64,000 nucleotides of DNA from Microlunatus sp. Gsoil 973 (GTDB lineage Bacteria; Actinomycetota; Actinomycetes; Propionibacteriales; Propionibacteriaceae), in the NCBI RefSeq assembly GCF_009707365.1, contig NZ_CP046122.1, forward strand, positions 2,480,001 to 2,544,000, given 5' to 3'. Every line of letters starts with the position of its first letter. Position 1 is the first letter of the stretch. This document shows, piece by piece, positions 3,728-43,142 of this stretch. Under the pieces are notes generated by a model. The model saw only the letters and a list, made by a program, of their open reading frames with translations. It was not told the DNA's origin and ran no database searches. The position numbers and the translations under genes are program-made.

Positions 3728-5448
3728 TCAGTGCGACTCCCGGCCGACGGTGTCCCCGCTCGAGCCGACCAGGAAGTCAAGATCAACACCGGTGTCGGCC
3801 TGGCCGACGTGATCGACGTACAGCCGCTCCCAGCCGCGGAGCGGGCCGCCAACGCGGTGATCATCTGCGGATCGGCCTCCCGCTCGGCCAGTTCAGCGTC
3901 GGAGACGAGGAGCCGAATAGTCCGGTTCGGCACGTCGAGCTCGATCAGATCGCCGTCGCGGACCAGCGCCAACGGTCCACCGGCGGCGGCCTCGGGCGCG
4001 ACATGCAGAACGACGGTGCCGTAGGCCGTTCCGCTCATCCGACCGTCGCAGATCCTGACCATGTCGCGTACGCCCTGCCGGAGCAGCTTCTCCGGCAACG
4101 GCATGTTGGACACCTCCGGCATCCCGGGGTAGCCCTTGGGCCCGCAGCCGCGCAGCACCAGCACTGAATCGGCATCCACATCCAGATCGGGATCGTCGAG
4201 CCGGGCCCGGCAGTCCTCGATCGAGTTGAAGACAACGGCGGGGCCGCGATGGGTGAGCAGCGCCGGTGTGGCCGCCGACGGCTTGATGATCGCGCCGTTC
4301 GGTGCCAGATTTCCTTGCAGGACGACTATTCCGGCGTGTTCCTGGGCTGGTGACTCCCAGGTCCTGATCACCCGGTCGTCCCAGATCTCCGCGTCGTCGA
4401 GATACTCGACCAGCGGCTTGCCGGTCACGGTGATCGCCGAGGCATCCAGCAGGTGCCTGACCTGCCGCAGCACCGCGAGCGGGCCACCGGCACGGAAGAG
4501 ATCCTCCATCAGATACTCGCCGGCGGGCTGCAGGTTGGCGATCATCGGCACGCCGCTGCCGATGGTGTCGAAGTCCTGCAGGGACAACCGCACTCCGAGC
4601 CGGCCGGCGATCGCCAGCAGGTGGACGACGGCGTTGGTCGAGCCTCCGACGGCGGCGAGCGCGACGATCGCGTTCCGGAAGGACGCCTCGGTGATCACCT
4701 GGCTGGGTCGGCGCCCCTCGCCCACCAGGTCGACCGCCAGCCGTCCGGTGTTGTGTGCGGCCTCCAGCAGCCGGCTGTCCGGCGCGGGAGTGCCGGCCAC
4801 ACCGGGCAGTGTCATGCCGAGAGCCTCGGCCATGATCGCCATCGTCGAGGCGGTGCCCATGGTGTTGCAGTGTCCGCGGCTGCGGATCATCGACGACTCC
4901 GACCGCCGGAACAGTTCCGGCGACAGAGTGCCGGCCCGGACCTCCTCGCTGAGCTTCCAGGTGTCGGTACCGCAGGCCATCGGCCGGCCGCGGAAGCTGC
5001 CGCTCAGCATCGGTCCGCCGGGCACGACGACCGCCGGGAGATCGACCGATGCCGCTGCCATCAGAAGTGCCGGGATGGTCTTGTCACACCCGCCGAGCAG
5101 CACCAGCCCGTCGATCGGGTTGGCCCGGAACATCTCCTCCATCGACATCGCGGCCAGGTTGCGCCAGAGCATCGCCGTGGGCCGGACCTGCGTCTCGCCG
5201 AGGGACATCACCGGCAGGTTGAGAGGGATCCCACCCGCCTCGTAGACACCCTGCTTGACCGACTGCGCGATCTCGTCGAAATGTGCGTTGCACGGGGTCA
5301 GCTCGGATCCGGTGTTGGCGATGGCGATCTGCGGGCGACCCCCGAACGCGCTGTCCGGCAGTCCGCGACGCATCCAGGCGCGGTGGATCGAGCCGTCCCG
5401 GGTGTCTTGGGCGTACCACTTGTTGCTCCGCAGGTCCACGATGGCCAT
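3728..5448 (-). CDS. IlvD/Edd-family sugar-acid dehydratase, frameshifted near its 3' end
   Basis: An Fe-S dehydratase of the dihydroxyacid/phosphogluconate dehydratase family, closest in appearance to L-arabinonate-type enzymes. Visible landmarks are GGCDKTIPA with a cluster cysteine, CNTMGTASTM with another, and ICDGRMSGTAYG near the C-terminus. It would convert an aldonate to a 2-keto-3-deoxy acid, after the SDR and lactonase encoded opposite. The last 35 or so codons are displaced: around the G run at 3843-3845 one base is missing, and in the next frame the expected tail GWERLYVDHVGQADTGVDLD resumes and ends at the TGA at 3728. Repaired length is 573 residues, normal for the family. Start ATG at 5448 has GAGAGG just upstream. 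Confidence 0.85.
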
Positions 5449-5551
5449 CCTCTCAGCCGGTGGTCCGGGCCACTGCCCCACGGGTCGGGATCGTACGCTG
5501 ACGCAGACCGATCCCCGGTCCCGAACACCGATCCGGTGACCAGACGAGCCG

Positions 5552-6707
5552 ATGACACGAGCCTCGATGATCACCAGCGCTGTCTCTGCCGAACTGGTGC
5601 GCGGCGCCATCGAGCTGGAACGCGCCGACCGACGGGATGCTGCCGCACCGGCTGCCCTCGTGGGCCCGACGCCAGGTGGCCGATCCCCAGCTGGCGATGG
5701 TCGAATCCCAGCCTTCGGGCGTACGGCTGGTGTTCCGGACCGACGCGACCGTGATCGAACTGGACACCAGGCCGACGAAACGTGAGTATCCCGGTCTGCC
5801 GGGGCGACCGGATGGCAGCTACGACCTGTTCGTCGACGGGGAACCAGCCGGGACGGACGTCAGTGCTCGGCGGCCACGTGATGATCATGAACTTCACCGG
5901 CGAGCCGCCACAGGTCCGGCCGGGACGGATCGGGAAGGCTCGCTACGACGGCCTCGCTCCTGGCCCCAAGGACATCGAGCTCTGGCTGCCGTGGGACGAG
6001 ACGACCGAGCTGATCGGCTTGCGCAGCGACGCCCCGATCGAACCGATCACCGAGACTCACCGGCCGGTGTGGGTGCACCACGGCAGCTCGATCAGCCACG
6101 GGTCGAACGCCGCCGGCCCGAGCAGCATCTGGCCGGCGGTCGCCGCGCGCCGTACCGGACGGGAGTTGATCAACCTGGGACTCGGCGGGTCCGCGCTGCT
6201 CGATCCGTTCACCGCTCGAACGATCCGGGACACACCGGCCGACCTGATCAGCGTCAAGATCGGCATCAACCTGGTGAACGCCGACGTGATGCGGCTACGG
6301 GCCTTCGTGCCCGCGGTGCACGGCTTCCTGGACACCATCCGCGATGGGCACCCCCAGACGCCGCTGCTGGTCGTTTCGGCGATCTACTGCCCGATGCTCC
6401 GAGCACACGCCCGGCCCGACGATGCCGGACGTGGAGGCCTACCAGCGTGGTGAGCTGCGGTTCGTCGCCTCCGGCGATCCGGCCGGCATCGCCGCGGGAC
6501 AACTCACCCTGTCGGCGATCAGGGACCAGCTGGCCGGGATCGTCGACCAGCGGTCGGACGCCGATCCTCACCTGGACTACGTCGACGGGCTACGGCTGTA
6601 CGGGGGAGGCGGACAGCACCGCTCACCCCTTGCCGGACGGACTGCATCCCGACGCCGAGACACACGAGTTGATCGGCAGCCGGTTCGCCGATCTGGCCTG
6701 GCCCTGA
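5552..6707 (+). pseudogene. SGNH/GDSL-family hydrolase broken by four frameshifts
   Basis: Pieces of one SGNH hydrolase follow each other in three frames: ELVRGAIELE from 5552, LPHRLPSWARRQ from 5637, HHGSSISHGSNAAGP and LINLGLGGSALLD to about 6400, PDVEAYQRGELRF to 6600, then DGLHPDAETHELIGSRFADL to the stop. The block with GSSIS and the final DGLHPD correspond to the catalytic Ser and Asp/His blocks. Every join equals one extra base: near CC 5629-5630, between about 5843 and 5866, at CC 6399-6400 and in the G run 6602-6606. With four bases removed the frame is open for 383 codons. Because nothing else is damaged, sequencing indels are as likely as true decay. It is divergent from the dehydratase and may belong to that cassette. 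Confidence 0.7.
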
Positions 6708-6742
6708 TCACCGGTGCCTGCAGCGGCCGGACTTCGGTCGGA

Positions 6743-7027
6743 TCAGCCGGGGAGCAGGCCTTCCTGGGACTCCTCGAGCAGCGACCTGACCTCCTCGACC
6801 GATGCGTCGGCCGCCGGCAGGATCAGGTCGGAATCCTCCAACTCGTCGTCGGCCACCGGCTGTCCGGCCGCGACGACCTTGGCGTGCAGCGCCGCCAGCG
6901 CCTCACTGAGTGCCTGCTGATCGTCGGCCGCGACGGCCTTCTCGATCGCGTCGTCCACGGAGTTCAGGTCAGAGATCGCGGCGTCGTCGACTCGGAACTG
7001 GCCCTCACCCAGGATCCGGATGATCAT
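6743..7027 (-). CDS. PspA-associated protein PspAA
   Basis: A 94-residue acidic protein beginning MIIRILGEGQFRVDDAAISD and ending SLLEESQEGLLPG. This matches the small PspAA domain found beside PspA in Actinobacteria. PspAA is thought to work with PspA in envelope-stress or membrane repair; its biochemical role is not established. The ATG overlaps the stop of the upstream pspA gene (ATGA), so the pair is almost certainly cotranscribed and translationally coupled. Confidence 0.72.
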   Translation of the reverse strand: MIIRILGEGQFRVDDAAISDLNSVDDAIEKAVAADDQQALSEALAALHAKVVAAGQPVADDELEDSDLILPAADASVEEVRSLLEESQEGLLPG

Positions 7028-7869
7028 CGGTTCTCCTCCGTGTTCGGCTGCGTCGTCTGAGCCTGTCCGTTCACCTGCTGTCCCGGCGCTTCGGTCGGTG
7101 CCGCGGTCGGCTGGCCGGCCTGACCCGCGACGCCCTGTCCCTCGATGGCGGGAGTCGACGCGGATCCGCCGCTCAGGGCCGCCTTCATCGCGGCCAGTTC
7201 GCTCTCCACGTCGGAGGTGGACGCCAACCGCTCCAGCTCGAGGGTGATGTCGTCCTTGCTCTGCCCGGTCTGGTCCTCCAGCACACCGCTGGCGATCAGC
7301 TCGTCCACCGCGCCGGCCCGCGCCTGCATCTCGGCGGTCTTGTCCTCGGCCCGCTGGATCGCCAGGCCGACGTCGCCCATTTCCTCGCCGATACCGGTGA
7401 AGGCCTCGTTGATCCGGGTCTGCGCCTCGGCCGCGGAGTAGGTCGCCTTGATGGTCTCCTTGCGGGTCCGGAACGCGTCGACCTTGGCCTGCAGCCGCTG
7501 GGAGGCCCGGACCAGCTTCTCCTCCTCGCCCTGCAGCTGGGCGTGCTGGGTCTGCAGGTCGCCCAGTTGCTGCTGCAGCCCGGACTTGCGGGTCAGCGCC
7601 TCCCGGGCAAGATCCTCACGACCAACCTCAAGCGCCTTCTTGGCCTGCCCGTTGAGTTTATCGATCTGGGTGTTGAGACCGTTCGCCTGCAGCTCCACCC
7701 GCTTGCGGCTGGTCGCCACGTCGGCTACACCCCGGCGCACCTTCTGCAACAGCTCGAGCTGACGCTGGTAGGAGTAGTCGAGGGTCTCGCGAGGATCCTC
7801 TGCCCGGTCCAAAGCCTTGTCCGCCTTGGCGCGGAAGATCATCGACATCCGCTGGAATATTCCGCTCAT
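7024..7869 (-). CDS. pspA: PspA/IM30-family membrane-stress protein
   Basis: A 281-residue PspA/IM30 (ESCRT-III-like) protein. It begins MSGIFQRMSMIFRAKADKAL, where an amphipathic first helix binds membrane, and continues with a long coiled coil to about residue 220. A Gly/Gln/Pro/Thr-rich tail of about 45 residues follows and is probably disordered. Family members coat stressed membranes to limit proton leakage. GGAG lies a few bases before the ATG. It is the first gene of a two-gene operon with PspAA and is divergent from the DUF3043 gene. Confidence 0.85.
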   Translation of the reverse strand: MSGIFQRMSMIFRAKADKALDRAEDPRETLDYSYQRQLELLQKVRRGVADVATSRKRVELQANGLNTQIDKLNGQAKKALEVGREDLAREALTRKSGLQQQLGDLQTQHAQLQGEEEKLVRASQRLQAKVDAFRTRKETIKATYSAAEAQTRINEAFTGIGEEMGDVGLAIQRAEDKTAEMQARAGAVDELIASGVLEDQTGQSKDDITLELERLASTSDVESELAAMKAALSGGSASTPAIEGQGVAGQAGQPTAAPTEAPGQQVNGQAQTTQPNTEENR

Positions 7870-7973
7870 CTGCTCTCCGCTGATCCTTGAAGGTCCATGT
7901 CACGACTGGCGTCCAGCTTATGCCCGCCGCCGGAGCACCGACATCAGACCGAGCGGGTAGTTTCGTAAATGGG

Positions 7974-7990
7974 TTGTGACCCTGACACAA
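7974..7990. promoter_or_regulatory. inverted repeat between pspA and DUF3043 genes
   Basis: TTGTG and CACAA face each other across 7 bp in the 161-bp divergent spacer, 40 bp before the DUF3043 start and 105 bp before the pspA start. It could be an operator serving either gene. The rest of the spacer shows no clear signal. Confidence 0.3.
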
Positions 7991-8030
7991 TCCCGGGGTC
8001 GACGGGCCAGAAAGCAAGGAGCAGACGGTC

Positions 8031-8585: not shown

Positions 8586-8596
8586 TCCCGCCCCGA

Positions 8597-8602
8597 TAGG
8601 GT
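8597..8602 (+). promoter_or_regulatory. -10-like hexamer of threonine synthase
   Basis: TAGGGT followed 9 nt later by the ATG. The very short leader and lack of a ribosome site suggest a leaderless or near-leaderless transcript. Confidence 0.4.
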
Positions 8603-8611
8603 GCGGGAACG

Positions 8612-9845
8612 ATGTTCAGCGCACCCAGCCACCTCGACTGTTCCCGCACCGGCACGCGGTACGAGGCCGACCAGGTCCAGGGTGTCAGCGAGGCCGGCGC
8701 GCCGTTGCTTGCCCGCTACGACCTCGAACGGGTAGCCGCGACGCTCACCCGCGAGGAGATCAGCAGTAGGCCGCCGACGCTGTGGCGCTATCGCGAACTC
8801 CTGCCCGTGCAGGACCCTGACAACATCGTCAGCCTCGGTGAGGGCATGACGCCGCTCACCGCGCTGCCCCGCTACGGCACGGCGATCGGCCTGCCGCGAC
8901 TGACCATGAAGGACGAGGGTCTGGTCCCGACCGGTTCGTTCAAGGCCCGCGGTGCGGCGGTGGGTGTCTCCCGAGCCCGCGAACTGGGTGTCCGCGGCGT
9001 CGCGATGCCGACCAACGGCAACGCCGGCGCCGCCTGGGCGACCTACGCCGCCCGCGCCGGGCTCGACTGCCTGATCGCGATGCCGGTCGACGCACCTGCC
9101 ATCACCCGGACCGAATGTGTGGCCGCCGGTGCCGAGCTCTATCTGGTCGACGGGCTGATCGGCGACGCCGGCAAGTTGGTCAACGCCGCTGTCGCTGCCC
9201 GGTCCGGCTACCAGGAGGTCTCCACCCCTCAGGGAGCCGTACCGGCTGGAGGGCAAGAAGACCATGGGCTACGAGATCGCCGAACAACTCGGCTGGCGGA
9301 TGCCCGATGTCATCGTCTACCCGACCGGCGGCGGCGTCGGACTGATCGGCATCGACAAGGCGATCAGCGAGCTGCTCGAACTCGGCTGGATCAGGGACAA
9401 GCTGCCCCGCCTGGTCGCGGTCCAGGCCGAGGGCTGCGCACCGATCGTCGAGGCGTACGAGTCGGGCGCGGCCGAGAGTGTGCCGTTCCCCGATGCGCGC
9501 ACCGTTGCGTTCGGCATCACGGTGCCCAAGGCATTGGGCGACTTCCTGATCCTGGACGCCGTACGCCGCACCGACGGCACGGCGATCGCCGTGTCCGACG
9601 CCGACCTGCTGACCGAGCAACGAGCACTCGCGGCGTCCGACGGCGCCTTCATCTGCCCCGAGGGCGCGGCCTGCATGGCAGCGGTCAAGCAGTTGCGCGA
9701 ATCCGGCTGGCTGTCCGCCTCCGACGAGGTTGTGGTGTTGAACACCGGCGCCGGACTGAAGTATCCCGAGACCGTTCAGGTCGACGTGCCGACGCTGCCG
9801 ATCGATGGCGTCATCCCCGACCGGCGTGGTCACCGGCGGACCTAG
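8612..9845 (+). CDS. thrC: threonine synthase, interrupted by one frameshift
   Basis: A PLP enzyme that converts O-phosphohomoserine to threonine. The PLP lysine is in PTGSFKARGAA, the phosphate-binding glycine loop in PTNGNAGAAWA and TGGGVGLIG. The frame breaks at the C run 9225-9228: removing one C joins QEVST to LREPYRLEGKKTMGYE, the expected family sequence, and gives an open frame of 410 residues. As this enzyme is needed for threonine synthesis and no other copy is in the window, a sequencing insertion is more likely than a true mutation. Its TAG stop overlaps the stop of the convergent MFS gene inside CTAG. Confidence 0.85.
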
Positions 9846-14154: not shown

Positions 14155-14276
14155 AACCTGCCCCAACCCGGTGATCTTTCCGGCTATTCCCAGCAGCGGG
14201 CTGGGGCTTTCCCGAGCACCGATTGACACGGCAGCATCATGTCGCCGGCCCACCTGCTGACGGGACGCTGGATGTC

Positions 14277-15029
14277 GTGTCCGCATTGCTTGTCGATCCC
14301 CGTACCGACGCCGATTCCTCGGTTCTCGCGCCCGCCCCGACCTCCAGCCCCGCTGGGATCAGCCCGGTTCCCGCAGACCGGGTTCGCGCCGGGCGGTGTG
14401 TCAGGCTGGTCAGCCTGCTGTCGGCGGCCGCCCTGGTGCCGATGATCATCGCCCATATCGTCGGCGCGACAGTCGTCGATCCGCTGACCGATCCGATCAG
14501 CTGGTACGCCTTCGTGCCGGGCGGTGCGGCGATGATCATCGCCGGCGGCGGCCTGCTGGCCCTGCTGGGTGTACTGATCACGATCAGGATGTACCGCGGC
14601 CGGCTGGTGTCGGGACCTCTGCCGGCAGTCGCGATGGCGGTCTTCAGTACGGCGATGATCACGGTCGGGGCGTTCCCGACCGATCCACCCCACGCGGCTC
14701 CGACGGCCGGCGCGATGGTTCACCGGGTGGCCGCCGGCGTCGCCTTCGCAGTCCTGCCGCTGGTCGGTCTGATGATCTCTGCCTCACTCACCGAGCCCCG
14801 GACAACACTGCCCCGACGGTTGCGCCGATCCGCCTGTCTGCTTGCCGGGCTGGTCGGGGCGTTCCTGGCCATCCACCTGCCACTGGCGTTCGCCGGATCA
14901 GGGATCGCCGCGTTCGGCTTCCTGGAACGGGCCGGTTTCGTGATCATGATCGGTTACCTGTTCCTGCTCGGCGCGACCATCGACCAGGAAAGCAGTCCGC
15001 AGCTCGCTAGTCCGCTGCGACGGTGCTGA
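14277..15029 (+). CDS. DUF998-type membrane protein
   Basis: A protein of about 250 residues with six or so hydrophobic helices after a 40-residue Pro/Ala-rich N-terminus. GAFPTDPPHAAPTAGAMVHRVAAGVAF, with the conserved P-x-D and histidines, is the hallmark of DUF998, a family of integral membrane proteins of unknown function. I chose GTG at 14277; TTG at 14223 would add 18 residues and cannot be excluded. Its 3' end overlaps the convergent epimerase gene by 23 bp. Confidence 0.65.
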   Translation: MSALLVDPRTDADSSVLAPAPTSSPAGISPVPADRVRAGRCVRLVSLLSAAALVPMIIAHIVGATVVDPLTDPISWYAFVPGGAAMIIAGGGLLALLGVLITIRMYRGRLVSGPLPAVAMAVFSTAMITVGAFPTDPPHAAPTAGAMVHRVAAGVAFAVLPLVGLMISASLTEPRTTLPRRLRRSACLLAGLVGAFLAIHLPLAFAGSGIAAFGFLERAGFVIMIGYLFLLGATIDQESSPQLASPLRRC

Positions 15030-15942
15030 GCCCGGCCGTACGCCGGCACACCTCGCCCCACGGCGTCGGGGCCAGCCCGAAGGCGGCTGTGATCGCCGAG
15101 GAGTCGATCACGTACGGACGCTTCATGATGTAGCTCATCACCCCGAACTGGCGGAAGTCGGCGTTGACCAGGCCGGCGGCCCGGACGAAGACATCCGGGA
15201 TCCGCCGCATGGCCACCATCGGCCTACCGGCCTCGGCCAGCACGTCGGCGGTGGCTTCTCGCGCGGAGCGGGGCGGGTTGGTCGGGGCCAGCCAGACCCT
15301 GCCGTACGCCCCGGGGTGCTCGGCGACGGTGGCCAGTGCCCGGCCGACATCCAGGACGTCGGTCCAGGAGTGCGGCTGGTCCGGGTCACCCATGAACCAC
15401 ACCGGCCTGCCCGCCAGCGCGGCGGGCACGTTGCGGGTCAGGTGACCGTTGCCGCCCACACCGGCACCGGCATAGTCCGATGCCCGCACTTCGACCGCGC
15501 GGATCCGGCCCTGATCATGGAGTTGCTTCGCCTCGGCCCACATCGCCGCGCGGATCCGGCCGTTCTTCTCGGTCGCCTTGTCCGGCAGCTGCTCGGTCAT
15601 CACCGCGTCGACCGGACCGTAGGCGTACAGGCTGGAGGCGCTGACCAGCACCGCCCCGGTCGCCTCGGCGGTCCGGAGCATGCTGGACCACAGCGGCGGC
15701 CAGACCTTCTCCCAGTTGCCGTAGTGGCTCGGATTGGCGCAGTTGTACAGCGCGTGTGCACCTGCGGTGATCTCGGTCAGCCTGGTGGGATCCGAGGCAT
15801 CGGCGGCGACCGGTACGACGCCGGAGACCGCCGGGCGGTTTCCGGTACGGGTGACGCTGATCACCTGGTGTCCCCCGGCGACCAGCGCCCGGGCTGTTTC
15901 GACGCCGACCGGACCGGCTCCGACGATGACGTGCTTGCTCAT
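15007..15942 (-). CDS. NAD-dependent epimerase/dehydratase-family protein
   Basis: A 311-residue extended-SDR-like protein. It starts MSKHVIVGAGPVGVETARAL with a Rossmann glycine motif and continues with YNCANPSHYGNWEKVWPPLW, SASSLYAYGP and HSWTDVLDVGRAL. The usual YxxxK is not obvious: AEAKQLHDQGR occupies that zone, so catalytic activity may be atypical. Relatives are often controlled by TetR-type repressors; here two short palindromes lie upstream but no regulator gene is near. GAGGAAAC precedes the ATG. Confidence 0.75.
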   Translation of the reverse strand: MSKHVIVGAGPVGVETARALVAGGHQVISVTRTGNRPAVSGVVPVAADASDPTRLTEITAGAHALYNCANPSHYGNWEKVWPPLWSSMLRTAEATGAVLVSASSLYAYGPVDAVMTEQLPDKATEKNGRIRAAMWAEAKQLHDQGRIRAVEVRASDYAGAGVGGNGHLTRNVPAALAGRPVWFMGDPDQPHSWTDVLDVGRALATVAEHPGAYGRVWLAPTNPPRSAREATADVLAEAGRPMVAMRRIPDVFVRAAGLVNADFRQFGVMSYIMKRPYVIDSSAITAAFGLAPTPWGEVCRRTAGLSTVAAD

Positions 15943-19211: not shown

Positions 19212-19248
19212 AACCTATCTCACCCGTCCGGGCCGGCTGGCGTAACCT
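19212..19248. promoter_or_regulatory. divergent leaderless promoters of gcvT and pepA
   Basis: TAGGTT on the minus strand (19212-19217) is 8 nt from the gcvT ATG. TAACCT on the plus strand (19243-19248) is 6 nt from the pepA GTG. The whole spacer is 51 bp and holds no ribosome site for pepA. Confidence 0.5.
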
Positions 19249-19254
19249 GACGTC

Positions 19255-20766
19255 GTGCCAGCGCCCCGACTCCCCCAGGCGACCATCGCCCGCTCCGTCC
19301 CACGTTCGACCGCGGTCCTGATCGCCGGGTTCACCGCCGAGGACGGCGTGGCCGGGTTACCGGACCAGGTGGTCAACAGTTACAAGAAGACCTTCGGCTC
19401 CCGCCCCGACGACCTGGCCAGGTCGATCGGCGCATCCGGCAAGGCGCTGGCGACCACCGTGCTTCCGCCCGCCGCCAAGACGACCGTCGTTCTGGTCGGG
19501 CTGGGCGACAAGCCGGTCGACCAGGTCACTGACGAGGAACTGCGCGCGGCGGCCGGCGCCGGCGCCCGGGCGGCGAGCGCGATGGATCTCACCGGTGCCT
19601 CGATCGCGGTCGGTTTCGGCCGCTCCGAGCCGACCGCCGTGCGGGCCGTCACCGAGGGGGCGCTGCTGGGGACGTACAGCTTCCGGGCGGTGACCACCGG
19701 CGAACCCGCCGAGCCCAAGATCAGCGCCATCACGGTCATCTCCCGGTCGACCGGCAAACAGCAGCTCGCTGCGGTCGAGACCGCGGAAGTGGTGGCGGCC
19801 GCTGTGGTGGCGAACCGGGACTGGGTCAACCAGCCGGCCAATCTGCTCTTCCCGGAAAGCTTCGCCGACGACGTCCGCGGCTACGCCGGCGCCGCGGGCC
19901 GGAAGATCTCGGTCGAGGTGCTGGACGCAGCGGGCCTGACCAAGGGCGGCTACGGCGGCATTCTCGCCGTCGGCGGCGGATCGGCGAAGGCACCGCGGCT
20001 GGTCCGGTTGAGCTATGCCCCGCGTGGCGCGGCCTTCCATCTCGCCCTGGTCGGCAAGGGCATCACCTTCGACTCCGGTGGGCTGGACCTCAAGACGCAG
20101 CAGGGCATGTACACGATGAAGAGCGACATGTCCGGTGCCGGTGCGGTCTTCGCCGCCACCCGGGCGATCGCCGATCTTGGTTTCAAGATCAAGGTCACCA
20201 CCTACGGAGCACTGGCCGAGAACATGCCGAGCGGCTCGGCCTGGCGTCCGTCGGACGTGCTGACCACCTACGGCGGCAAGACGGTGGAGAACATCAACAG
20301 CGACGCCGAGGGCAGGATCGTGATGGCCGATGCCCTGGCCAGGGCCAGCGCCGAGGACAGACCGGACCTGATCATCGATGTGGCCACCCTCACCGGCGCC
20401 GCTGTCGTCGCGCTGGGCGAGCGGACCGGTGCGGTGTTCAGCAACTCCGAGGAGGTCGCCGGCAAGGTGCTGGCGGCGGCGGCCGCCGCCGGTGAGCGGT
20501 TCTGGCAGTTGCCTATCGTCGAGGAATCACGCGGTTTCCTGGAATCCGAGGTGGCCGATCTGAGGTCGGGCAAGACCGGGGGCGGAGGCGGCGCGATGAC
20601 CGCGGCCGCATTCCTGCGTGAGTTCGTCGGCGACGTGCCGTGGGCCCATCTCGACGTCGCCGGGCCGGCGTTCAACAGCAACAGCGCCTACAGCTACGTG
20701 TCCTCCGGAGGGACCGGGATGGCGGTCCGCACGCTGGTCGCACTGGCCGAGTCACTGGCCGGTTGA
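19255..20766 (+). CDS. pepA: leucyl aminopeptidase (M17)
   Basis: A 503-residue cytosolic M17 metallopeptidase that removes N-terminal residues, using two metal ions in a hexamer. Metal and catalytic residues are in [14 protein letters not shown], the Asp of [11 protein letters not shown] and the signature [14 protein letters not shown]; the family consensus is NTDAEGRL, so Thr is replaced by Ser. The N-terminal third is the variable macro-like domain. GTG start at 19255 fits the -10 position. Upstream gcvT is divergent. Confidence 0.93.
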
Positions 20767-28281: not shown

Positions 28282-29350
28282 ATGACTCTCCGCAAGGCAA
28301 CCCTCGCGGCCGTGGTCCTCCCCCCTCATCGGAGTACTGGCCGGAGTGCTGGCCGGAGTGCTGACCGATGGGCCACCACGCGCCGCGAATGCTCCGGCAA
28401 CCGCCTCGTCGGTCTACGTCGCACTCGGCGACTCCTACTCCGCCGGCGTCGGGACACGGGACCGGCAGGACGACTGCTACCGGTCGCCGTACGGCTATCC
28501 GGCGCTGGTCGCCGACCAGTACGACCTGACGTTGGACTACCAGGCCTGCACCGGTGCCACCACCGGCGATGTCCGGGCGGATCAGCTCGCAGCGCTGGAC
28601 GGCACCACGGCAGCGGTCTCGATCACCATCGGCGGCAACGACGCCGGATTCACCGATGTGCTCACCACCTGCGCGCTGCCGTTCTGGCTGAGTGACTGCA
28701 CAGGACAGGTGGATCGCGGCCTGGCCGTGGTCGAGGACGAGTTGCCCGGCCGGTACAACGACCTCTTCACAGCGATCCGGGCCGCCGCACCGCAGGCCAC
28801 GGTCGCGGTCGGCGACTATCCGCTGCTCTTCCAGGGCGAGGACTGCAATGCCGCAACCTTCTTCAGCCCGCAGGACGAGGCGCAGATCAACGCCGCGACC
28901 GGAATCCTGGACGACCTGATCGGCGCTGAGGCGGCGACCTACGACTTCCGGTTCGTCGAGGCCAGGCCGGGCTTCACCGGCCATGCGATCTGCGACGACG
29001 CCGAATGGATCAACGGCCTGAGCAATCCGGTGACCGAGTCCTATCATCCCAACCGTGACGGCAACATCGGCTACGCCGGGCTCTTCGGGCCGGCGCTGAC
29101 CGGCCGCCCGTACCCGGCAGGCAGCCAGGTCCGGACGGCTCGGCCGAGGCCCGCTCCGTCCGTGCGGGATCAGGCGGACAACGTGTTGATGATGCGGCTC
29201 GACTCACCGGCCAACCTGGCCAAGGCCCGTCGGCACGGCATCCCGCCCGGGCGGATCCGCACGCTGGTGCGGATGCTGCGTGCCGACGACCCGGCCACGG
29301 TTCGTTCGGCCCTCACGGCGTTGCACCGGCTGGACCGTCGGGCGGGTTGA
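28282..29350 (+). CDS. secreted SGNH hydrolase, frameshift in the signal peptide
   Basis: The mature part has all SGNH blocks: ALGDSYSAG (Ser), TGATTGDV (Gly), ITIGGNDAGF (Asn) and YHPNRDGNIGYA (His). It resembles secreted esterases/lipases with many cysteines. The C-terminal 80 residues, including RMLRADDPATVRSALTAL, are extra. The start MTLRKATLAAVVLP is in another frame: removing one C from the six-C run 28320-28325 fuses it to LIGVLAGVLAGVLTDG, giving a normal signal peptide and 355 residues in total. The ATG is 8 bp after the permease stop. The stop abuts the convergent CMD gene in TGATCA. Confidence 0.8.
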
Positions 29351-31783: not shown

Positions 31784-32513
31784 GACCGAGAAGCCGCAGA
31801 GCGACAAGCCCGACAGGGGTGGCACCGACCCGTCCCAGCTGGGCCGGTTCCGGCAGATCATCGTCGCCTATCAGCGCACCCACGAGTACGACAAGCCGCT
31901 GCCGTTCCTGCTGGCCGGCGCTTTCGTCGTCCCGATCATCCTCGCGGTCATCGCCGGAATGGTCTTCGGGGCGATGATCTCGTTGATCATCCTCGGCATC
32001 ATGGTCGGCCTACTGCTGGCCATGCTGTTGCTGGTGCAACGCACCAAGGCCGCGACCTACAAGCGGTACGCCGGACAGGCCGGATCGGCCGAGGTCGCCC
32101 TGGCCATGCTGCCCAAGAAGTGGATCTCCACCCCGGCGATCGCCGCCAACCGGCAGCTGGATGCGGTGCACCGCACCCTCGGCCCGGGCGGCCTGGTGCT
32201 GATCGGCGAGGGCGAGCCCGGTCGGCTGAGGGCGCTGCTGACCAGCGAGGTCCGCAAGCACGAGAAGGTCGCGTACGGCGTCAAGGTCACCACGATCATG
32301 ATGGGCAACGGCAAGAACCAGGTCCCGCTGGAGAAGCTGGCCGACCACATCCGCAAGCTGCCCAAGGTGCTGGAACCCAACCAGGTGACCGAGATCAAGT
32401 CCCGGCTCAACGCGCTGGACAAGGTCCGGCCGCAGATCCCGGTACCCAAGGGCCCGATGCCGACCAACCCGCGACAGGTCCGCGGCGCCAAACAGGCTAT
32501 GCGCGGCCGGTGA
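31776..32513 (+). CDS. DUF4191 membrane protein
   Basis: A 245-residue protein with a Lys-rich N-terminus, two adjacent membrane helices (about residues 48-68 and 70-88), then a soluble domain with [23 protein letters not shown] and [13 protein letters not shown]4191 proteins commonly follow lipA in Actinobacteria; their role is unknown. Cotranslated with lipA by overlap. Its end overlaps the repaired end of the convergent sulfotransferase gene. Confidence 0.83.
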
Positions 32514-33766
32514 GTCTGCGTACTGCCTGACTGATGATCTTGGCGCCGGCGGCCACGCCGAGCGCGCCGATCCGCAGATGCTGGGTCGACCGGTGGGCGT
32601 TGAGCACCCGACGGGTCTCGTCGGCGTCGAGAATCCCTGTCCAGCAAGGGATCCGACACCTTCCGCCGCTCCAGACCGTCCGCTGAACGGTCGAAGAACG
32701 GACCGAGCCCGTCGGCCGCCGACAATACCCCGGCGACCCCCTCCACGACCGCGTCCAGCGGCAGGTCGTTCGGCTGGTCGACCTGGTCCACCGTCGGCAA
32801 CGGCGCGGTCAGAACCGCCGGGTCACCGATCACTCGACATCCCGACGCCCGGATCGCCTCGGCATGCTCCCGGGCCGTCTGCAGCGCGATCCGCGCCGCC
32901 CAGCCCGGCACACGCAGGTCGGGTTCACCCGGCGACGGGCGCCGGTTCTCCTGCACCCGGGCGATCAGTCCGTGCCGGATCAGCGACGTGTAGCGGCGCC
33001 AGTCGTAGCGCTGCTCCCGCATCGTCAGGTTGACCCGCCGGACCAGCTCCGCCTCGGCAAGGGACAGTCCACGGTTGGCGGCATATCCGCCCACCGGTCG
33101 GGTGGCCAGCGTCCCTGGCCGTAACCCGAGCAATTGCTCGAAGGTGGTGATCAACAGGTCCGGGTGCCGTTTGTCGGGGATCACCACCGTGACCTTGTCC
33201 GGCCCGACCAGATCGGTCCAGCGACCGACGATCGCCGCCTGATCGTTGCGGCGGTAGAAGGTCGGCACGGTCGGTCCCTGCCCCCGCCGGAGCACGGCGT
33301 CCAGCCACTGCTCGAAGCCGCCGGTGTGACCGGCCTTGATCGCCTGTTGCCAGTTGGTCGGCAGCAGGTCGGCGAAACCGCGCACAGTGATCGCGATGTG
33401 CAGTCCGTCCCCGAGTTCGGCGCAGAACCGGCGCGCCTGGCGGTCGTCGGATTCGCAGATGAACTCGCTGCTGATGAAGACCCGCTGCGCGGGGCTCGTC
33501 CTGGCCTCGCTGACCAGCCGGTCCCAGACCCGGCGATCGTGGGTGATCGCGCCACGACCGCGCCATCCCAGCGGGCGCTGCATCAGGGCGGCAGCCGCGT
33601 CACGGTGGTTGAAGGCGTCGCCTGGATAGCAGACGCCCTGTGCCAGCAGCCGCTGACGATTGACCGCCGCACCCCGCTGCAGGGTCGTCGTTCCGGTCTT
33701 GGGCAGCCCGATGTGCAGCAGTCGGGTGCCGCCCGGGAGTGCCGGGACGGGGCCTGGCGGAGTCAC
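32497..33766 (-). CDS. sulfotransferase-family protein, frameshifted near the 3' end
   Basis: A paralogue of the next gene. It begins with the PAPS-binding loop RLLHIGLPKTGTTTLQR and has FISSEFICESDDRQARRF and VTVVIPDKRHPDLLITTFEQLLG. The last part is out of frame: removing one base from CCC 32635-32637 restores LLDRILDADETRRVLNAHRS, ending at the TAG at 32497, 422 residues. This tail matches the tail of the paralogue in layout. Acceptor molecule unknown; glycan or lipid sulfation is possible by family. ATGA overlap with the upstream paralogue. Confidence 0.72.
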
Positions 33767-35151
33767 CGCAACCGGGACCGTACGGACCGTCCGACGTTGC
33801 GCACCAGTCTCCGGGCCTTCTTGCGGAGCGGTTTGGTCTTCTGATCGGCGGTCGTGATCCCGCGATAGGCAGCGACAGCGGCGATCGTCCGGTCGTCCAG
33901 ATGCCTGGTGGCCCGAATGGCGTTGGCCAACTCCAGGCCGTTCTCCGACGGATACAGCTTCTGCAGATAGGCCGGGTAGCTGCTCGCACGCTGGACGCCC
34001 TCCGGCGGCTCGTCGAAGAACGCCCCCCGTCCGTCCTCGGCGGACAACAGGCCGGCGATCGCCTCATGCGCGGCGTCTACCGGTACGGAGGTGATGTCGG
34101 GCAGTCGTGGGACCGTACGGACCGGCAGGGTCAGGGTGTCCAGGTCACCGATCACCCGGCACCCGGACGCTGCGATGGCGTCGGCGTACTGCCCGGCCCG
34201 GACCAGCGCCTTCTTGGCCGCCCACTCGGGCAGGGTGAGCACCGGCTCGTCCGGCCCCGGGCGTCGGTTCTCCTGCAGTCTGGCGATCAGCCCGTTCCGC
34301 ATCAAGTCAACGTAGCGATCCCAGGTCATGTCCTGGTCGCGGAAGATCTTGTTGATCCGGCGGACGAGTTCGGCCTCCGGCATGGACAGGCTGCGGTTGG
34401 CGGCGAAGCCACCGGCGGGGAGCGCGCTGAGCAGTCCGGTCGGGACACCCAGCAGATCCTCGAAGGCGTTGATCAGCTGGTCCGGCCGGCGCTTGTCGGC
34501 GATGACCACCGTGACGTTCTCCACTCCGGCGACCCGGATCCAGCGGTCGACGATCGCGGCCTGGTCGTTGCGCTTGTAGAAGGTGGGGGTCGTCTTCAGC
34601 TTGGCCGGGTCACCGAGGATCTGCCGGAGCCAGGTCCGGTACGGCTTGAGGTAGCCCGCCTTGACGTACTGCTGCCAGCTCGACCCGAGCAGGTCGGCGA
34701 AACCGCGCACAGTGATGACCACATGAACCTGCTGGCCGAGCGCCTCGACGAAGCGGCCCGCCTGCTCGTCGGTGGATTCGCAGGCGAACTCGTGGCTGAT
34801 CAGTGACCGCGGCGCAGGGCTGGTCTTGACCTCGTTCTCGATCCGCCGCCAGATCCCGTAGCCAGGCGCGGACTCGCTGTTCTTCCAACCAAGTGTCCGG
34901 TCCATCAGCGCCGAGACGGCCTCGCGGTGGTTGAGCGACTTCCCCGGATAGCAGACGCCGTGCTCCAGCAGCTCCCGGCGCCGGTACGCCGCGCTCCGCT
35001 GCAGCGTTGTGGTGCCGGTCTTGGGGATGCCGATGTGCAGCAGACGACTCCCCTCCGGCAGGGGCTCGACGGGTTGCGACCGGGTCTCTGCTTGCGGTAC
35101 GGCGGTCACGAGAGTGAGCTCCTCAGGGGTCTGATGCTGCGGCCGGCTCAT
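33763..35151 (-). CDS. sulfotransferase-family protein
   Basis: A 462-residue protein with the PAPS loop SRLLHIGIPKTGTTTLQRSA near residue 33, SLISHEFACESTDEQAGRF, HVVITVRGFADLLGSSWQQ, which matches the R-x-P/F region after the 3'-phosphate strand, and FEDLLGVPTGLL. The C-terminus is strongly basic (TKPLRKKARRLVRNVGRSVRSRLR). No membrane helix is visible, so it is probably cytoplasmic. It begins 1 bp after the ABC-F stop and overlaps its paralogue, so the three form one operon. Substrate unknown. Confidence 0.72.
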   Translation of the reverse strand: MSRPQHQTPEELTLVTAVPQAETRSQPVEPLPEGSRLLHIGIPKTGTTTLQRSAAYRRRELLEHGVCYPGKSLNHREAVSALMDRTLGWKNSESAPGYGIWRRIENEVKTSPAPRSLISHEFACESTDEQAGRFVEALGQQVHVVITVRGFADLLGSSWQQYVKAGYLKPYRTWLRQILGDPAKLKTTPTFYKRNDQAAIVDRWIRVAGVENVTVVIADKRRPDQLINAFEDLLGVPTGLLSALPAGGFAANRSLSMPEAELVRRINKIFRDQDMTWDRYVDLMRNGLIARLQENRRPGPDEPVLTLPEWAAKKALVRAGQYADAIAASGCRVIGDLDTLTLPVRTVPRLPDITSVPVDAAHEAIAGLLSAEDGRGAFFDEPPEGVQRASSYPAYLQKLYPSENGLELANAIRATRHLDDRTIAAVAAYRGITTADQKTKPLRKKARRLVRNVGRSVRSRLR

Positions 35152-35152: not shown

Positions 35153-36938
35153 TTACCCGGTGTTCAGCTCCGACAGCTCGAGCCAGCGGTCCTCCAGCTC
35201 GGCGACCTGGGAACGCAGCCCGTTGAGTTGCTCACCCTGGGCGGCCAACCGGACGTAGTCGGAATGGCTGCCGGCCATTTCCTTCTCCAACCGGCTGATC
35301 TCGTCGTGCAACCGGGACATCCGGCGTTCCACAGCGGCGATCTCCTTGCCGATGGCCCGGGTCTTGGCAGCCGAGGTCGGGGCGCCCGCGGCCAGGGCCG
35401 CCTGCTCCGACGGGGCCGGTGCCGGTCGCTCGGACCGCCCGGCAACCAGATCCAGGTACTGGTCGACCCCGCCGGGCAGGTGCCGGAGACGTCGGTCGAT
35501 GATCGCGTACTGCTGGTCGGTGACCCGCTCGAGCAGATAACGATCATGGGTCGCCACCAGCAGCGTTCCCGGCCAGGAATCGAGCAGGTCCTCCATCGCG
35601 GCCAACATGTCGGTGTCCAGGTCGTTGGTCGGCTCGTCGAGCACCAGCACATTGGGCTCATCGAGCAGGATCATCAGCAACTGCAACCGCCGTCGTTGAC
35701 CGCCGGACAGATCCTTGATCGGCGTGGACAGCAGGGCGTTGGGGAAGCCCAGCTGCTCCAGCAGCTGCGCCGGTGTCAACTCCCTGCCACCGGCGACGTA
35801 CTCGGTCCGCTTGGTCGCCAGCAGTTCCCTCACCCGGAGGTGATCGACGGGGGCGAGTTCGCTGAGCTGCTGGCTCAGTACCGCGACCTTGACCGTCTTG
35901 CCGCGCTTGACCCGGCCGCTGTCGGGCTGCAGGGCACCGGTGATCAGTTTCAGCAGGGTGGTCTTCCCGGCGCCGTTGGGTCCGGAGGATCCCGCTCCGT
36001 TCCCCGGGCCCGATCCGCCACTCGACTTCGGCGAGCACCGGCCGGTCGTCGTAGGAGACCGACACGTCGAGCACATCGATCACGTCCTTGCCGAGCCGGG
36101 CGGTGGCCAGTTGCTGCAGTCCTACGGTGTCGCGGACCGGCGGCTCGTCGGCGATCAGCTGGTTGGCTGCCTCGATCCGGAATCGGGGTTTCGCGGTACG
36201 CGCCGGGGCACCACGGCGCAGCCAGGCCAGCTCCTTGCGCATCAGGTTCTGTCGCTTGTTCTCGGCCTGGGCGGCCAACCGGTCGCGTTCGACCCGCTGC
36301 AACACATAGGCGGCGTAGCCGCCGTCGAACGCGTCGACGGTCCCGTCGTGGACCTCCCAGGTCAGCGTGCAGACGGCGTCGAGGAACCAGCGGTCGTGGG
36401 TGACGACGACCAGCCCGCCGTCGCTCGGCCGCCACCGCCGGGTGAGATGGTCGGCGAGCCAGCCGATGCCCTCGATGTCGAGATGATTGGTCGGCTCGTC
36501 CAGCAACAGCACGTCGTAGTCGCCGGTCAGCAGCGCTGCCAGGGCCACCCGGCGGCGTTGGCCGCCGCTCAGCGTGCCGACGACGGCGTCGAAGTCCAGG
36601 TCGGAGAGCAGCCCGCCGATGACGTCGCGGATCCGGGCATCGGATGCCCACTCGTGGTCCGGCCTGTCGCCGACCACGATCTGCCGGATGGTCCCGGCCG
36701 AGTCCAGGACGTCGGCCTGGTCGAGCATGGCGATCCGCAGGTCGCGCCGCGGGATCACCTGACCACCGTCCGGTCGCAGCCGCCCGGCGAGCAGCCGGAG
36801 CAGGCTGGACTTGCCGTCACCGTTGCGCCCGACAACGCCGATCCGGTCGCCGGAGTTGACTCCGACGGTCAGCGCCCCGAACACAGTCCGGGTCGGGAAG
36901 TCCAGCGAAACGGCCTGGGTGCCCAGCAGATGAACCAC
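35153..36938 (-). CDS. ABC-F family ATPase, frameshifted at the second Walker A
   Basis: Two ABC domains without membrane helices, as in ABC-F translation factors (Uup/EttA-like). Domain 1: Walker A GRNGDGKSSLL, signature LSGGQRRRVALA, DEPTNHLD. Linker with QRVERDRLAAQAENKRQ. Domain 2: LGPNGAGKTTLLK, LSGGQRRRLQLL, DEPTNDLD. A coiled-coil C-terminal domain from about residue 525 resembles Uup. Removing one base at GG 35984-35985 joins GERSGI to LGPNGAGK, giving 594 residues. GTG start at 36938. ABC-F proteins act on the ribosome; a resistance role cannot be claimed. Two sulfotransferases follow in the same operon. Confidence 0.85.
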
Positions 36939-36954: not shown

Positions 36955-36961
36955 GACGCCC

Positions 36962-38344: not shown

Positions 38345-38357
38345 AACGGAGCAGTTG

Positions 38358-39302: not shown

Positions 39303-39939
39303 CCAGGCCCCTACGGAGGGCGGCGAAGGCCTGCCGGCGAACACTTCGCCGGCCGGTGTCGATGGCGGCCGGACCGGACTCGCCGGCCACCGCCTGCTCC
39401 AACGGCCACCAGTCGATCAGGTGGATCGCCTCGGCGATCATCCAGGCCGCAGTCGTCCGGCGGACACCGGTGACCGGCGACGGAAGCTCCTCGACGATCA
39501 CATCCCGCAGCTCGACGTAGTGCACGTGGAAGCGTGCGGTCAACACCCTGCTCCCGGCGACCATGATCGCGAACAGTCGCCAGCCGTCGGGACGCCACCG
39601 GCCGCGCAACGCCGCGGTGACCGGACCGCCGGTCTCCCGGGCGATGCAGTACTGCTCGGCGGCGGTGATCGCGTCCGCCAGCGTCCGCTCCCCGCGCAGC
39701 GTTGATCCGAGTTGGTCGAGCTCGTCGCCGAACTGGTCGAAGACCAGGTCCTCCTTCAGCGGGAAGTGATTGGTCACCGTCATCTTGGACACGCCGGCGG
39801 CGTTGGCGATGTCGGCGATGGACACCTGATCGAAGCCGTTCTCGATGAACAGGCCGGTCGCCGCGTCGGAGATCCGCAGCCGCCGCTCCTGGACGGCCGA
39901 CCGTGGACGGGCCCGCGGCGACGGCGATCCGGATGTCAT
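39289..39939 (-). CDS. TetR-family transcriptional regulator
   Basis: A 216-residue repressor-type protein. The helix-turn-helix is in residues about 20-65: RRLRISDAATGLFIENGFDQ, VSIADIANAAGVSKMTVTNHFPLKEDLV. The C-terminal ligand domain is unlike any I recognise. It is divergent from the FAD monooxygenase, and the 73-bp spacer holds a long palindrome that should be its operator. The inducer may be the substrate of the monooxygenase. Confidence 0.86.
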   Translation of the reverse strand: MTSGSPSPRARPRSAVQERRLRISDAATGLFIENGFDQVSIADIANAAGVSKMTVTNHFPLKEDLVFDQFGDELDQLGSTLRGERTLADAITAAEQYCIARETGGPVTAALRGRWRPDGWRLFAIMVAGSRVLTARFHVHYVELRDVIVEELPSPVTGVRRTTAAWMIAEAIHLIDWWPLEQAVAGESGPAAIDTGRRSVRRQAFAALRRGLVTQD

Positions 39940-39973
39940 GACAAAAGCCTAGCGAAGTTTGGTCGAACCCAAT

Positions 39974-39996
39974 ATATTTAGGTCTGACCTAAATAT
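39974..39996. promoter_or_regulatory. TetR operator, 11-1-11 palindrome
   Basis: ATATTTAGGTC, one T, then GACCTAAATAT: perfect arms of 11 bp, strikingly AT-rich in this GC-rich DNA. It lies 34 bp before the TetR start and 16 bp before the monooxygenase start, so one bound repressor could block both promoters. Confidence 0.85.
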
Positions 39997-40012
39997 TTGG
40001 ATGGAGTGAGTG

Positions 40013-41524
40013 ATGACAGAAGTGATCATCGTCGGCGGCGGCCCGGTCGGCTTGATGCTGGCGCACGAACTGACCGTCGGCGGCGTCCGGCCGCTGGTCC
40101 TCGAACGGCGGGACGACATCGATCCGACGATCAAGGCCGGCTACCTCAACCAGCCGGCGTACGAAGCACTGGGCCGGCGCGGGTTGTTGCGACCGGCCAC
40201 CGGGCCGTCGGAGGAGACCTCACCCAATCCGCGGACCATGCCGGTGGGCAAGGACGGCCGGCCGATCTTCGTCGGCCATGTCGCGGGCATGCCGATCCGA
40301 CCGGATCTGGTCGACCTCGAGGTGCTCGACCAGGGCCCGTTCGCTACCGGGGGCGGCCTGATCGGCCAGCAGGAGTTGGAACGTCTGCTCGGCGAGCGAC
40401 TGGCCGAACTCGGCGTCGAGGTCCGCCGCACCGTGACGATCACCGGGGTCAGGCAGGACGGGGAATCGGTCAGGGTACTGACCGCCGACGGCGTGCTCGA
40501 GGCCGACTGGGTGATCGGGTGCGACGGGGGCCGGAGCATCGTCCGGAAGAGCGCGGGCATGGGTTTCCCAGGCTTGGACGGGGAGATGACCGGTCGCCAG
40601 GTGGTGGTCCGTGGCACCGGACTGGACCGGATCGAGCCCGGGTGGCACCACACTCCGACCGGCGTGTACCGCCGGATGCCGGGGGCGGAGGTGATCCTGA
40701 CCGCCGAGTTCGACGGCGCGCCGCAGGACCGGGACCAGCCGATCACCGTCGAGGAGGTGGAGCAGTCGATCAGGCGGGTCACCGGAGTGCCGGTGACCAT
40801 CACCCAACTGCTCAGTGCGACGCGGTTCACCGACAACACCCGGGTTGCCGACCCGTACCGTATCGGCCGGGTGTTCGTTGCGGGTGATGCCGCCCACGTC
40901 CACCCGCCGTTCGGCGGACAGGGTCTGTCGCTGGGCATGCTCGACGCGAGCGATCTCGGCTGGCGGCTGGCTGCCGTGGCCCGCGGCCGCGCCGACGAGT
41001 CGATCTTGGACGGCTATCAGGCCGAGCGCCGCCCGGAGGCCGAGCGGATCCTGGAGTGGAGCCGTGCCCAGGTGGGCATCATGCGTACCGACGAACGGTC
41101 CCGGGCAGCGTCCCGACTGGTCCGGCGGCTGATGGAGACCCCCGACGGCGCCACCGAGGCTGCGCGCGTGGTATCCGGCCAGGTGATCGGCTACACCACA
41201 GACGACGGCCCGGTCGGCAGCTACGCACCGAACTGGCCGGGCACCATCGGCACACTCTGGCAGGCCACCGCCGACGGTCGGGCGGTGCTGGCTCATCGGC
41301 CGGACGTACGGCTTCCCGATGACCTCGCAGCTGATCTTGCCGATCCGCGCGGCCGCTACCGGGTGACCGTGTTCGAGACCGAGTTCGCGCCCGTGCCGCT
41401 GACGCTGATCAGACCGGACGGAGTGGTCTCCTGGATCGGCACACAGCCGGAGGGTCTGGCCGACGCGCTGGCCGCCATCGGTGCAGTCGAGCCCTCGGTC
41501 GACGCGGTCGCCGAACCGGTCTGA
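40013..41524 (+). CDS. FAD-dependent aromatic-type monooxygenase
   Basis: A 503-residue class A flavoprotein hydroxylase (PHBH fold). It has the FAD motif VIIVGGGPVGLMLAHEL, the DG motif in VIGCDGGRSIVRK, and the GD motif in VFVAGDAAHVHPPFGGQGLSLG. The C-terminal thioredoxin-like region is present (YRVTVFETEFAPVPLTLIRPDG). Relatives hydroxylate phenols or polyketides, or inactivate rifamycin-like antibiotics; nothing here fixes the substrate. Probable target of the divergent TetR. ATG at 40013, with GGAGTGAG upstream. The stop abuts the convergent permease stop in TGATCA. Confidence 0.87.
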   Translation: MTEVIIVGGGPVGLMLAHELTVGGVRPLVLERRDDIDPTIKAGYLNQPAYEALGRRGLLRPATGPSEETSPNPRTMPVGKDGRPIFVGHVAGMPIRPDLVDLEVLDQGPFATGGGLIGQQELERLLGERLAELGVEVRRTVTITGVRQDGESVRVLTADGVLEADWVIGCDGGRSIVRKSAGMGFPGLDGEMTGRQVVVRGTGLDRIEPGWHHTPTGVYRRMPGAEVILTAEFDGAPQDRDQPITVEEVEQSIRRVTGVPVTITQLLSATRFTDNTRVADPYRIGRVFVAGDAAHVHPPFGGQGLSLGMLDASDLGWRLAAVARGRADESILDGYQAERRPEAERILEWSRAQVGIMRTDERSRAASRLVRRLMETPDGATEAARVVSGQVIGYTTDDGPVGSYAPNWPGTIGTLWQATADGRAVLAHRPDVRLPDDLAADLADPRGRYRVTVFETEFAPVPLTLIRPDGVVSWIGTQPEGLADALAAIGAVEPSVDAVAEPV

Positions 41525-42319
41525 TCATGAACTCGCACTGCTGTACCGCCGCATGCCGGCCAGCCAGACCAGCCTTGTGATGATCACCAGGACGAGCAGC
41601 AGGCCGGCGCCGTAGAGCAGCAACACCGGGCGTACGGTTCCGGTCAGCAGCTGCACCGGAACCGTCGTCGCCAGCCCCAGCGGCAGCAGCGACAGCATGA
41701 TCACCCGGACCGCCCTCGGGAAGAAGGCCAGCGGGTATTTGCCGGCGGTCAGCAGTGCGGAGAACAGCTCGCCCAGCGCACCGACCGAAGTCAGCCAGAA
41801 GGCCAGATAGCCGAGGTTGATCCAGACCAGGGCCACCGTGAGCAGACCGATCACGAAGCCGATCACGGCGATGGCGACCGAGCCCGGACTGATGACGACG
41901 TCCGAGGCGGTCAGTCCGATGATCATCAACGCCGTGCCGGTCAGTATCCCCCACGCCTCGGCCGGCTGCACCCAGCGGAGCGCGGCGAACGGCTGGCTGG
42001 CGACCGGATGGATCAACAGCAGGTCGAGCTGACCCTGACGGATGTAGTCGGTCATCTTGGCCTGGTTGGGCGCGATGAAGGTCGCCAACAGCGAGGTCAT
42101 GATCTCAGCGACCCCGCCGATCGCGATCACCAGACCGACATCCCAACCGTTCACCCTGGTCGAGTGGCTGAAGATCACCAGTACCGGTGCCACCTGGGCG
42201 AGCATCTCCACCAGGCCGACCCCGACGGTGGTCCAGGCCTGCGCGCGGAACTGTGCCTCGCGGACCAATGACAGGGCCAGCACCGCGCGGGCGACCGCAA
42301 GCCCGTGCCGTACCGTCAT
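41525..42319 (-). CDS. ABC-2-family permease (second of two)
   Basis: A 264-residue, six-helix membrane protein of the ABC2_membrane_6 (DUF990) type. It has ARAVLALSLVREAQFRAQAWTT at the start and DYIRQGQLDLLLIHPV, which matches the R-x-G-x-LD-x-LL-x-P motif of this family. It forms a heterodimeric channel with the upstream permease, to which it is joined by an ATGA overlap. Substrate unknown; some relatives export viologens or cationic drugs. Confidence 0.8.
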   Translation of the reverse strand: MTVRHGLAVARAVLALSLVREAQFRAQAWTTVGVGLVEMLAQVAPVLVIFSHSTRVNGWDVGLVIAIGGVAEIMTSLLATFIAPNQAKMTDYIRQGQLDLLLIHPVASQPFAALRWVQPAEAWGILTGTALMIIGLTASDVVISPGSVAIAVIGFVIGLLTVALVWINLGYLAFWLTSVGALGELFSALLTAGKYPLAFFPRAVRVIMLSLLPLGLATTVPVQLLTGTVRPVLLLYGAGLLLVLVIITRLVWLAGMRRYSSASS

Positions 42320-43142
42320 GCCCCGGCCCCCGAATAGGTCCGGATGCCCAGCCGCCAGATCAGTCGCGCAGCCGCGGCGAACACCAGCAGCCAGCCGAGC
42401 TGGCAGAGCAGCCCGGTCACCAGCCCGCCCTGGACGTTGCCGAGCAACACCTCCAACGGGAAGGACACCAGGAACCGGAACGGCTGCACCTGGCTGAGTC
42501 CGTGCAGCGCATCCGGCAACAACGCCAGCGGGATCACCGCGCCGGACAGCAGCGGAACGATGACCTCCGACGCCCGGAGGAATCCGTTGACGTCGGAGAA
42601 CCAGAACGCCAGCGATCCGATCATCACGTCGAGCAGCCAGGTCATCAGCGCGGCGATGATCAAGCAGCCGAAGGCCAGCAGCCAGCGCCAGAGCGCCTGC
42701 GGCAGGTCGAAACGATCACCGAGCGCAACCGCAAGCACCGCCACCATCGGGACCAGCAGGATCAGCTTGATCACCTTCTCCCCCACGTTGTTGGCCAGGG
42801 CGTCGACGTGGGTCGACGTAGCCCGGCAGAGATACCGGTTCAGGCCGCCGCCGCGGATCTCCTCTGCCAGATAGAACGCCGTCCATGAGTTGGTCAACAT
42901 GTTGACGATGGAGATCAACACGAAGTAGGCGGTCAGGTATCGCGGCGTCGTCGGGAGCTGGGCACCCGACGCGATCGCTGCCTGCCAGACGAATAGCGAG
43001 ATCAGCGGGACCAGGACGTTCCCCACCTGCCACAGGAATACCTCCCCCGATAGCTGAACGTTGCCGACAGGTTGAGGACCAGCAGCTTGCTGAAGATCCG
43101 CAGATGCCTTCTCGGCCGGCGCAGCGTCGCACGGATGATCAT
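42316..43142 (-). CDS. ABC-2-family permease (first of two), frameshifted near its 5' end
   Basis: The body, from FLWQVGNVLVPLISLFVWQAA on, has six helices and the related motif EIRGGGLNRYLCRA. The expected N-terminus MIIRATLRRPRRHLRIFSKL, then LLVLNLSATFSYRG, is read in another frame. Adding one base to the five-base G run (43044-43048 as C on the plus strand) joins them and gives 275 residues. The repaired ATG at 43142 overlaps the ATPase stop in ATGA, which supports this reading. Partner of the permease below and the ATPase above. Confidence 0.78.

Follow-up and report, generated by a model that had tools for sequence, protein, structure and literature searches.

Programmed ribosomal frameshifting, known for example from prfB and dnaX, involves a frame change at a run of bases, and frameshifted pseudogenes have open frames cut by one-base insertions or deletions (indels). 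Homopolymer-length errors are described in PMC8812927 as usually remaining in bacterial assemblies made from long reads only, and a section of PMC12007338 reports a draft genome with 1101 genes marked as frameshifted by the Prokaryotic Genome Annotation Pipeline (PGAP). Frame breaks comparable to these are described here from a window of 64,000 bases (positions 2,480,001-2,544,000, the whole stretch of DNA analysed; G+C content 68%) within a single-contig genome of 4,913,910 bases, which most likely belongs to the genus Microlunatus. Their presence in the deposited letters is confirmed. Very probably, they are residual one-base consensus errors of an under-polished single-contig assembly, scattered over the 4.9 Mb chromosome, and as such an ordinary artefact and no biological feature. 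With the long-read-only assembly errors of PMC8812927 and PMC12007338, insofar as the cited passages describe them, they share run-associated one-base indels, genome-wide occurrence and a family sequence which resumes in the next frame; they differ in that gains dominate (in the window and in a first sample of the chromosome) and in that the runs at the breaks are short, with up to 6 bases. Unlike in frameshifted pseudogenes, 5 of 7 broken genes tested display the selective constraint of intact genes and one break, outside the window, resides in a single-copy gene regarded as essential, and unlike in programmed ribosomal frameshifting, the break is not conserved in orthologs.

Breaks were detected by means of a reference-free, frameshift-tolerant hidden Markov model (HMM), whose training drew on the codon statistics of the genome itself. 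For rate comparisons a strict filter was applied, which retained 6 of the 10 breaks claimed for the window. Outside the window, the same chromosome was sampled in 40 stretches of 20 kb (703,932 coding bases), comprising a first sample of 20 evenly spaced stretches (356,515 coding bases) and a second one of 20 more (347,417 coding bases). The comparison set consisted of six genomes of the same genus with 882,538 coding bases, in which roughly 12 kb are counted twice (L137 with L177, L130 with L166). Among the relatives used for alignment (G006, G011 and G012), G012 was assigned to the same genus by genome search, and much of the window was matched by it in order at 72–83% DNA identity. A protein scan would not by itself have revealed the genus, as Streptomyces hits reached equal scores in it.

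The initial annotation of the window had claimed ten one-base frameshifts and proposed to compare them with orthologs in relatives. Nine of the ten are backed by this comparison, as same-genus orthologs read in one frame and do not contain the breaks. The HMM recovered eight (3841, 5843, 6400, 6592, 9234, 32633, 35979 and 43051) and gave no call at about 5627 and 28322. The genes concerned, together with one further candidate and a gene outside the window, are:

3731..5448, minus strand: IlvD/Edd-family dehydratase, best NCBIfam match PRK06131 (dihydroxy-acid dehydratase subfamily); Pfam, NCBIfam
5567..6707, plus strand: SGNH/GDSL hydrolase (Lipase_GDSL_3) with four frame changes; Pfam, HMM for three of the four
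8612..9845, plus strand: threonine synthase, NCBIfam NF006050; NCBIfam, HMM, G012 ortholog
14223..15029, plus strand: DUF998 protein with a candidate eleventh frame change near 15010, by its 3' end; Pfam, orthologs
28282..29350, plus strand: secreted SGNH hydrolase (Lipase_GDSL_2), open part 28346-29350; Pfam
32509..33748, minus strand: gene labelled sulfotransferase in the initial annotation; HMM, G012 and G011 orthologs
35153..36938, minus strand: ABC-F ATPase in two frames; Pfam, NCBIfam, HMM
42316..43142, minus strand: ABC-2 type permease (ABC2_membrane_6); Pfam, HMM
L117 4283-4703 (genome about 3,994,283-3,994,703), outside the window: rnpA (RNase P protein), split about 30 codons in; PF00825, NCBIfam

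The IlvD/Edd gene occupies two frames in the window versus a single open frame in G006, G011 and G012, with a frame change of the loss type at 3844-3853 according to the HMM and 2 of 2 spanning orthologs. Four gains were located in the SGNH gene relative to the orthologs from G012 and G006 alike (5627-5633, 5844-5864, 6383-6397 and 6588-6606), the leftmost of which is flanked on its left side by 20–30 weakly aligned residues. Threonine synthase matches NF006050 at profile positions 4–205 in one frame and 208–396 in the next, the gain being located at 9225-9234. Another gain was found in the 32.6-kb gene at 32634-32636 (2 of 2 spanning orthologs), and the ABC-F ATPase, the pieces of which were searched separately against Pfam and NCBIfam, changes its frame at 35984-36010 in agreement with all six spanning orthologs. 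The loss in the ABC-2 permease (43038-43048) is evident from DNA alignment with G012, G006 and G011 and from protein alignment with G011 only (29% and 52% identity), while no break was seen in the adjacent ATPase gene (43139-44062). The tenth claimed break (28320-28325) coincides with a C6 run within the apparent signal peptide of the secreted SGNH hydrolase, as judged by sequence inspection; the sole ortholog (G011) aligns from 28325 onward and no break was called, such that a real break at this position is plausible, not proven. A further break, absent from the list of the initial annotation, is tentatively proposed near 15010, where 2 of 2 spanning orthologs (G006 and G011) indicate a change of the loss type. 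The right side of this alignment is short (32–34 residues), and the end of the DUF998 gene overlaps a convergent epimerase-family gene (15007-15942).

Breaks are spread genome-wide and are confined neither to the region from 3.7 to 43.1 kb nor to one locus or function. In total, 33 strict calls (22 gains, 11 losses) were obtained in the 40 stretches outside the window versus 7 (2 gains, 5 losses) in the six same-genus genomes, the rate in the latter corresponding to about one sixth of that in the genome under study (Fisher P about 1e-6 for all calls and 2e-6 for gains). The first sample accounted for 21 calls (16 gains, 5 losses) and the second for 12 (6 gains, 6 losses); 18 of the 40 stretches were devoid of strict calls. 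From the first sample, 17 of the 21 calls were taken into an ortholog test, with ortholog fetching favouring the call-richest stretches, and the 13 calls with an ortholog resolved into 11 frame breaks and 2 gene overlaps. The window itself yielded seven strict calls, one of which (52615) represents a gene boundary; the remaining six do not clearly exceed the frequency found outside (P 0.07–0.16). The genes after 43.2 kb, described as intact in the initial annotation, are indeed clean, but this is unremarkable: a clean stretch of 20.8 kb (43.2–64 kb) is expected with a chance of 0.34–0.42 if the strict call rates of the whole genome are applied (0.04 if the window's own 10 per 64 kb are taken), and breaks occur elsewhere on the chromosome. 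Once the rate of the relatives is subtracted, about 27 calls remain per 800 kb, corresponding by rough extrapolation to roughly 170 per chromosome. Since 6 of the 10 breaks claimed for the window pass the strict filter, the true chromosome total may be near 280.

The break in rnpA is the most decisive one. PF00825 has a single match in the genome, which extends over profile positions 37–108, whereas the match starts at positions 1–3 in 28 of 28 other matching genomes (31 genomes searched, 2 without match), and the NCBIfam rnpA model matches from position 35 only. Two orthologs with a protein alignment cross the break in one frame, and DNA alignment to three relatives places it in the same run. 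Since bacteria are regarded as unable to do without the RNase P protein, living cells are unlikely to carry at least this break. In yidC (Pfam 60KD_IMP, L117 5052-6172), the C-terminal part is frame-shifted versus G012 and G006. Further calls outside the window fall within genes for a mannitol dehydrogenase, a phospholipase-D-like protein, an amidase, a phosphoesterase, transporters, solute-binding proteins, a sigma factor and an iron-sulfur protein.

With respect to sequence context, the breaks had been claimed to lie mostly in C/G runs. An excess is apparent, since 8 of 14 gains placed by alignment are located within C/G runs of at least 3 bases (1.4 expected, P about 2e-5), which fits homopolymer-length errors. 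Four of the 14 gains (5628, 5854, 6396 and 32634 in the window) were placed outside any run, where gap placement may err by a few bases. Excluded from this count were gains without clean single-base placement (L111, L115:14208 and window 28322) and gains without an aligned relative (L101, L103, L108, L115:16322, L115:16638 and L120).

Selection on the broken genes was assessed from the ratio of nonsynonymous to synonymous differences (pN/pS) relative to G012. Values of 0.33 (IlvD), 0.40 (SGNH), 0.25 (threonine synthase), 0.33 (32.6-kb gene) and 0.23 (ABC-F) compare with 0.12–0.57 (median 0.26) for 26 control genes, a set in which the long open part of IlvD is itself included. Constraint in the five broken genes that have a close ortholog is hence like that in their intact neighbours, and relaxed selection is not observed in them. 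Recent genuine gene decay, with a strain truly bearing the indels, e.g., from a mutator phase or laboratory passage, would agree with this result if the breaks are young, as they appear to be in these five genes without loss of constraint, and is also favoured by the clustering of four breaks in one SGNH gene (P about 3e-5). It is very unlikely nevertheless, because rnpA is present only once and should not tolerate a genuine break after about 30 codons, which would be lethal, and because the breaks are found chromosome-wide in unrelated gene classes, unlike the loss of a function. Recent decay, one of the less likely readings of the initial annotation, is not supported. That the strain truly bears hundreds of one-base indels after a recent indel-mutator phase and survives the rnpA break thanks to an alternative start or leaky correction of the frame is considered extremely improbable; actinomycetes are not known to possess MutS/MutL repair of runs. 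There is a slight chance that a true pseudogene exists in one case only, the SGNH gene (5567-6707), and that the other breaks are errors. Of the ten breaks claimed for the window, four fall within this gene; its overall pN/pS (0.40) ranks in the upper half of the controls, and 0.74 and 0.63 were obtained for the two short pieces at its ends (19 and 39 codons). The three central pieces (73–177 codons), however, keep values of 0.32–0.38, and all four changes are gains, as are most breaks of the first sample. Programmed ribosomal frameshifting at slippery runs is of negligible probability. Some breaks are indeed situated within C or G runs, but the host genes are unrelated and the run lengths differ. 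No conserved break with a conserved run was seen in relatives, and orthologs spanning the window breaks form single open frames where alignable (6 of 6 for ABC-F, 2 of 2 for IlvD and both SGNH orthologs). With orthologs unbroken at the break sites, a conserved programmed shift is therefore not supported, in line with the low rank previously assigned to it.

Several observations weigh against residual consensus errors. Two broken genes, the secreted SGNH hydrolase (pN/pS 0.57) and the permease (0.66), both compared with G011 only, reach or exceed the upper end of the control range. The alignment of G011 to yidC shows no break, genome completeness is 99.87%, and internal stops were found in none of 12 matches to the GTPase domain PF00009. 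Losses show no clear excess over the same-genus genomes (11 vs 5, P about 0.08), and the second sample, in which gains do not exceed losses, has fewer gains than the first (6 vs 16, P about 0.05). The four breaks in the 1.1-kb SGNH gene are clustered beyond a uniform rate even after correction (P about 0.002); either a true pseudogene or low coverage at this place could explain this. Raw ortholog-alignment signals numbered 18 in the window versus 13 (G012), 10 (G006) and 8 (G011), i.e., 0.33 per kb versus 0.23–0.26 in the three relatives, and constitute a weak discriminator; in 9, 5 and 5 of the signals in G012, G006 and G011, respectively, the window's own open reading frames (ORFs) were the query. 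Finally, the consulted section of PMC12007338 stresses nanopore deletions after long runs along with insertions unrelated to runs, so that the present pattern does not point to a particular sequencing platform.

Residual consensus errors, already favoured in the initial annotation as indels of the assembly, are supported by the genome-wide breaks, the affected single-copy gene regarded as essential, the mostly kept constraint, the excess in C/G runs and the unbroken orthologs. Insufficient polishing would have left one-base consensus errors, chiefly an extra C or G and often in a short C/G run; the source would be long reads with too little polishing. The reads would then not support the breaks, and the living cell would most likely carry intact genes. 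A one-contig genome rated 99.87% complete accordingly appears to hold, by rough estimate, about one frame-breaking error per 17–30 kb, which should be taken as a warning. Counts of pseudogenes, comparisons between strains and pathway steps scored as missing (threonine synthase, RNase P protein) would mislead if derived from this assembly, and the reference-free comparison with sister genomes provides a cheap means to recognize such assemblies.

Various signals were rejected. Based on ORF ends and frames, seven extra HMM positions (6746, 33792, 42335, 43143, 48087, 52615 and 53810) were judged to represent gene ends or overlaps, and L107:2034 and L118:15704 are overlapping genes, likewise present in relatives. 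Seven of the 18 raw signals in the window (7876, 19245-19255, 21167, 25485, 26265, 30826 and 57789) were judged to be over-extended ORF starts without individual tests, as were the remaining signals in G012, G006 and G011. Weight was placed on in-gene signals scoring strongly on both sides and on the HMM detector. A flanking-base motif, in which a C run is followed by T or a G run by A on the deposited strand, was noticed post hoc next to gains of the first sample and the window (14 of 19 sites, background 0.21; 4 of 23 sites dropped, with no run at most 6 bases away). It was not confirmed by a rule fixed in advance for the second sample (3 of 5, P about 0.07; one of the six gains had no run within this distance and was left out). 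A split at about 60055 belongs to the relative G012 and not to the window. G012 itself is split at L141 9041-10389, the counterpart of which is intact in the window (58992-60347), and may carry such a break of its own.

For the gene at 32509..33748, labelled sulfotransferase, no Pfam or NCBIfam model matched. Neither this gene nor its upstream neighbour at 33763-35151 (together 32509-35151) matches Pfam, and both have orthologs in the genus. On the chromosome outside the window, a gene for a binding-protein-dependent permease (L107 6879-7830) apparently has two breaks, near 7067 and 7688, versus the G011 ortholog. A Baseplate_J-like gene with a frame change (L199 132-1308, near 4.59 Mb) is perhaps part of a phage-tail-like cluster.

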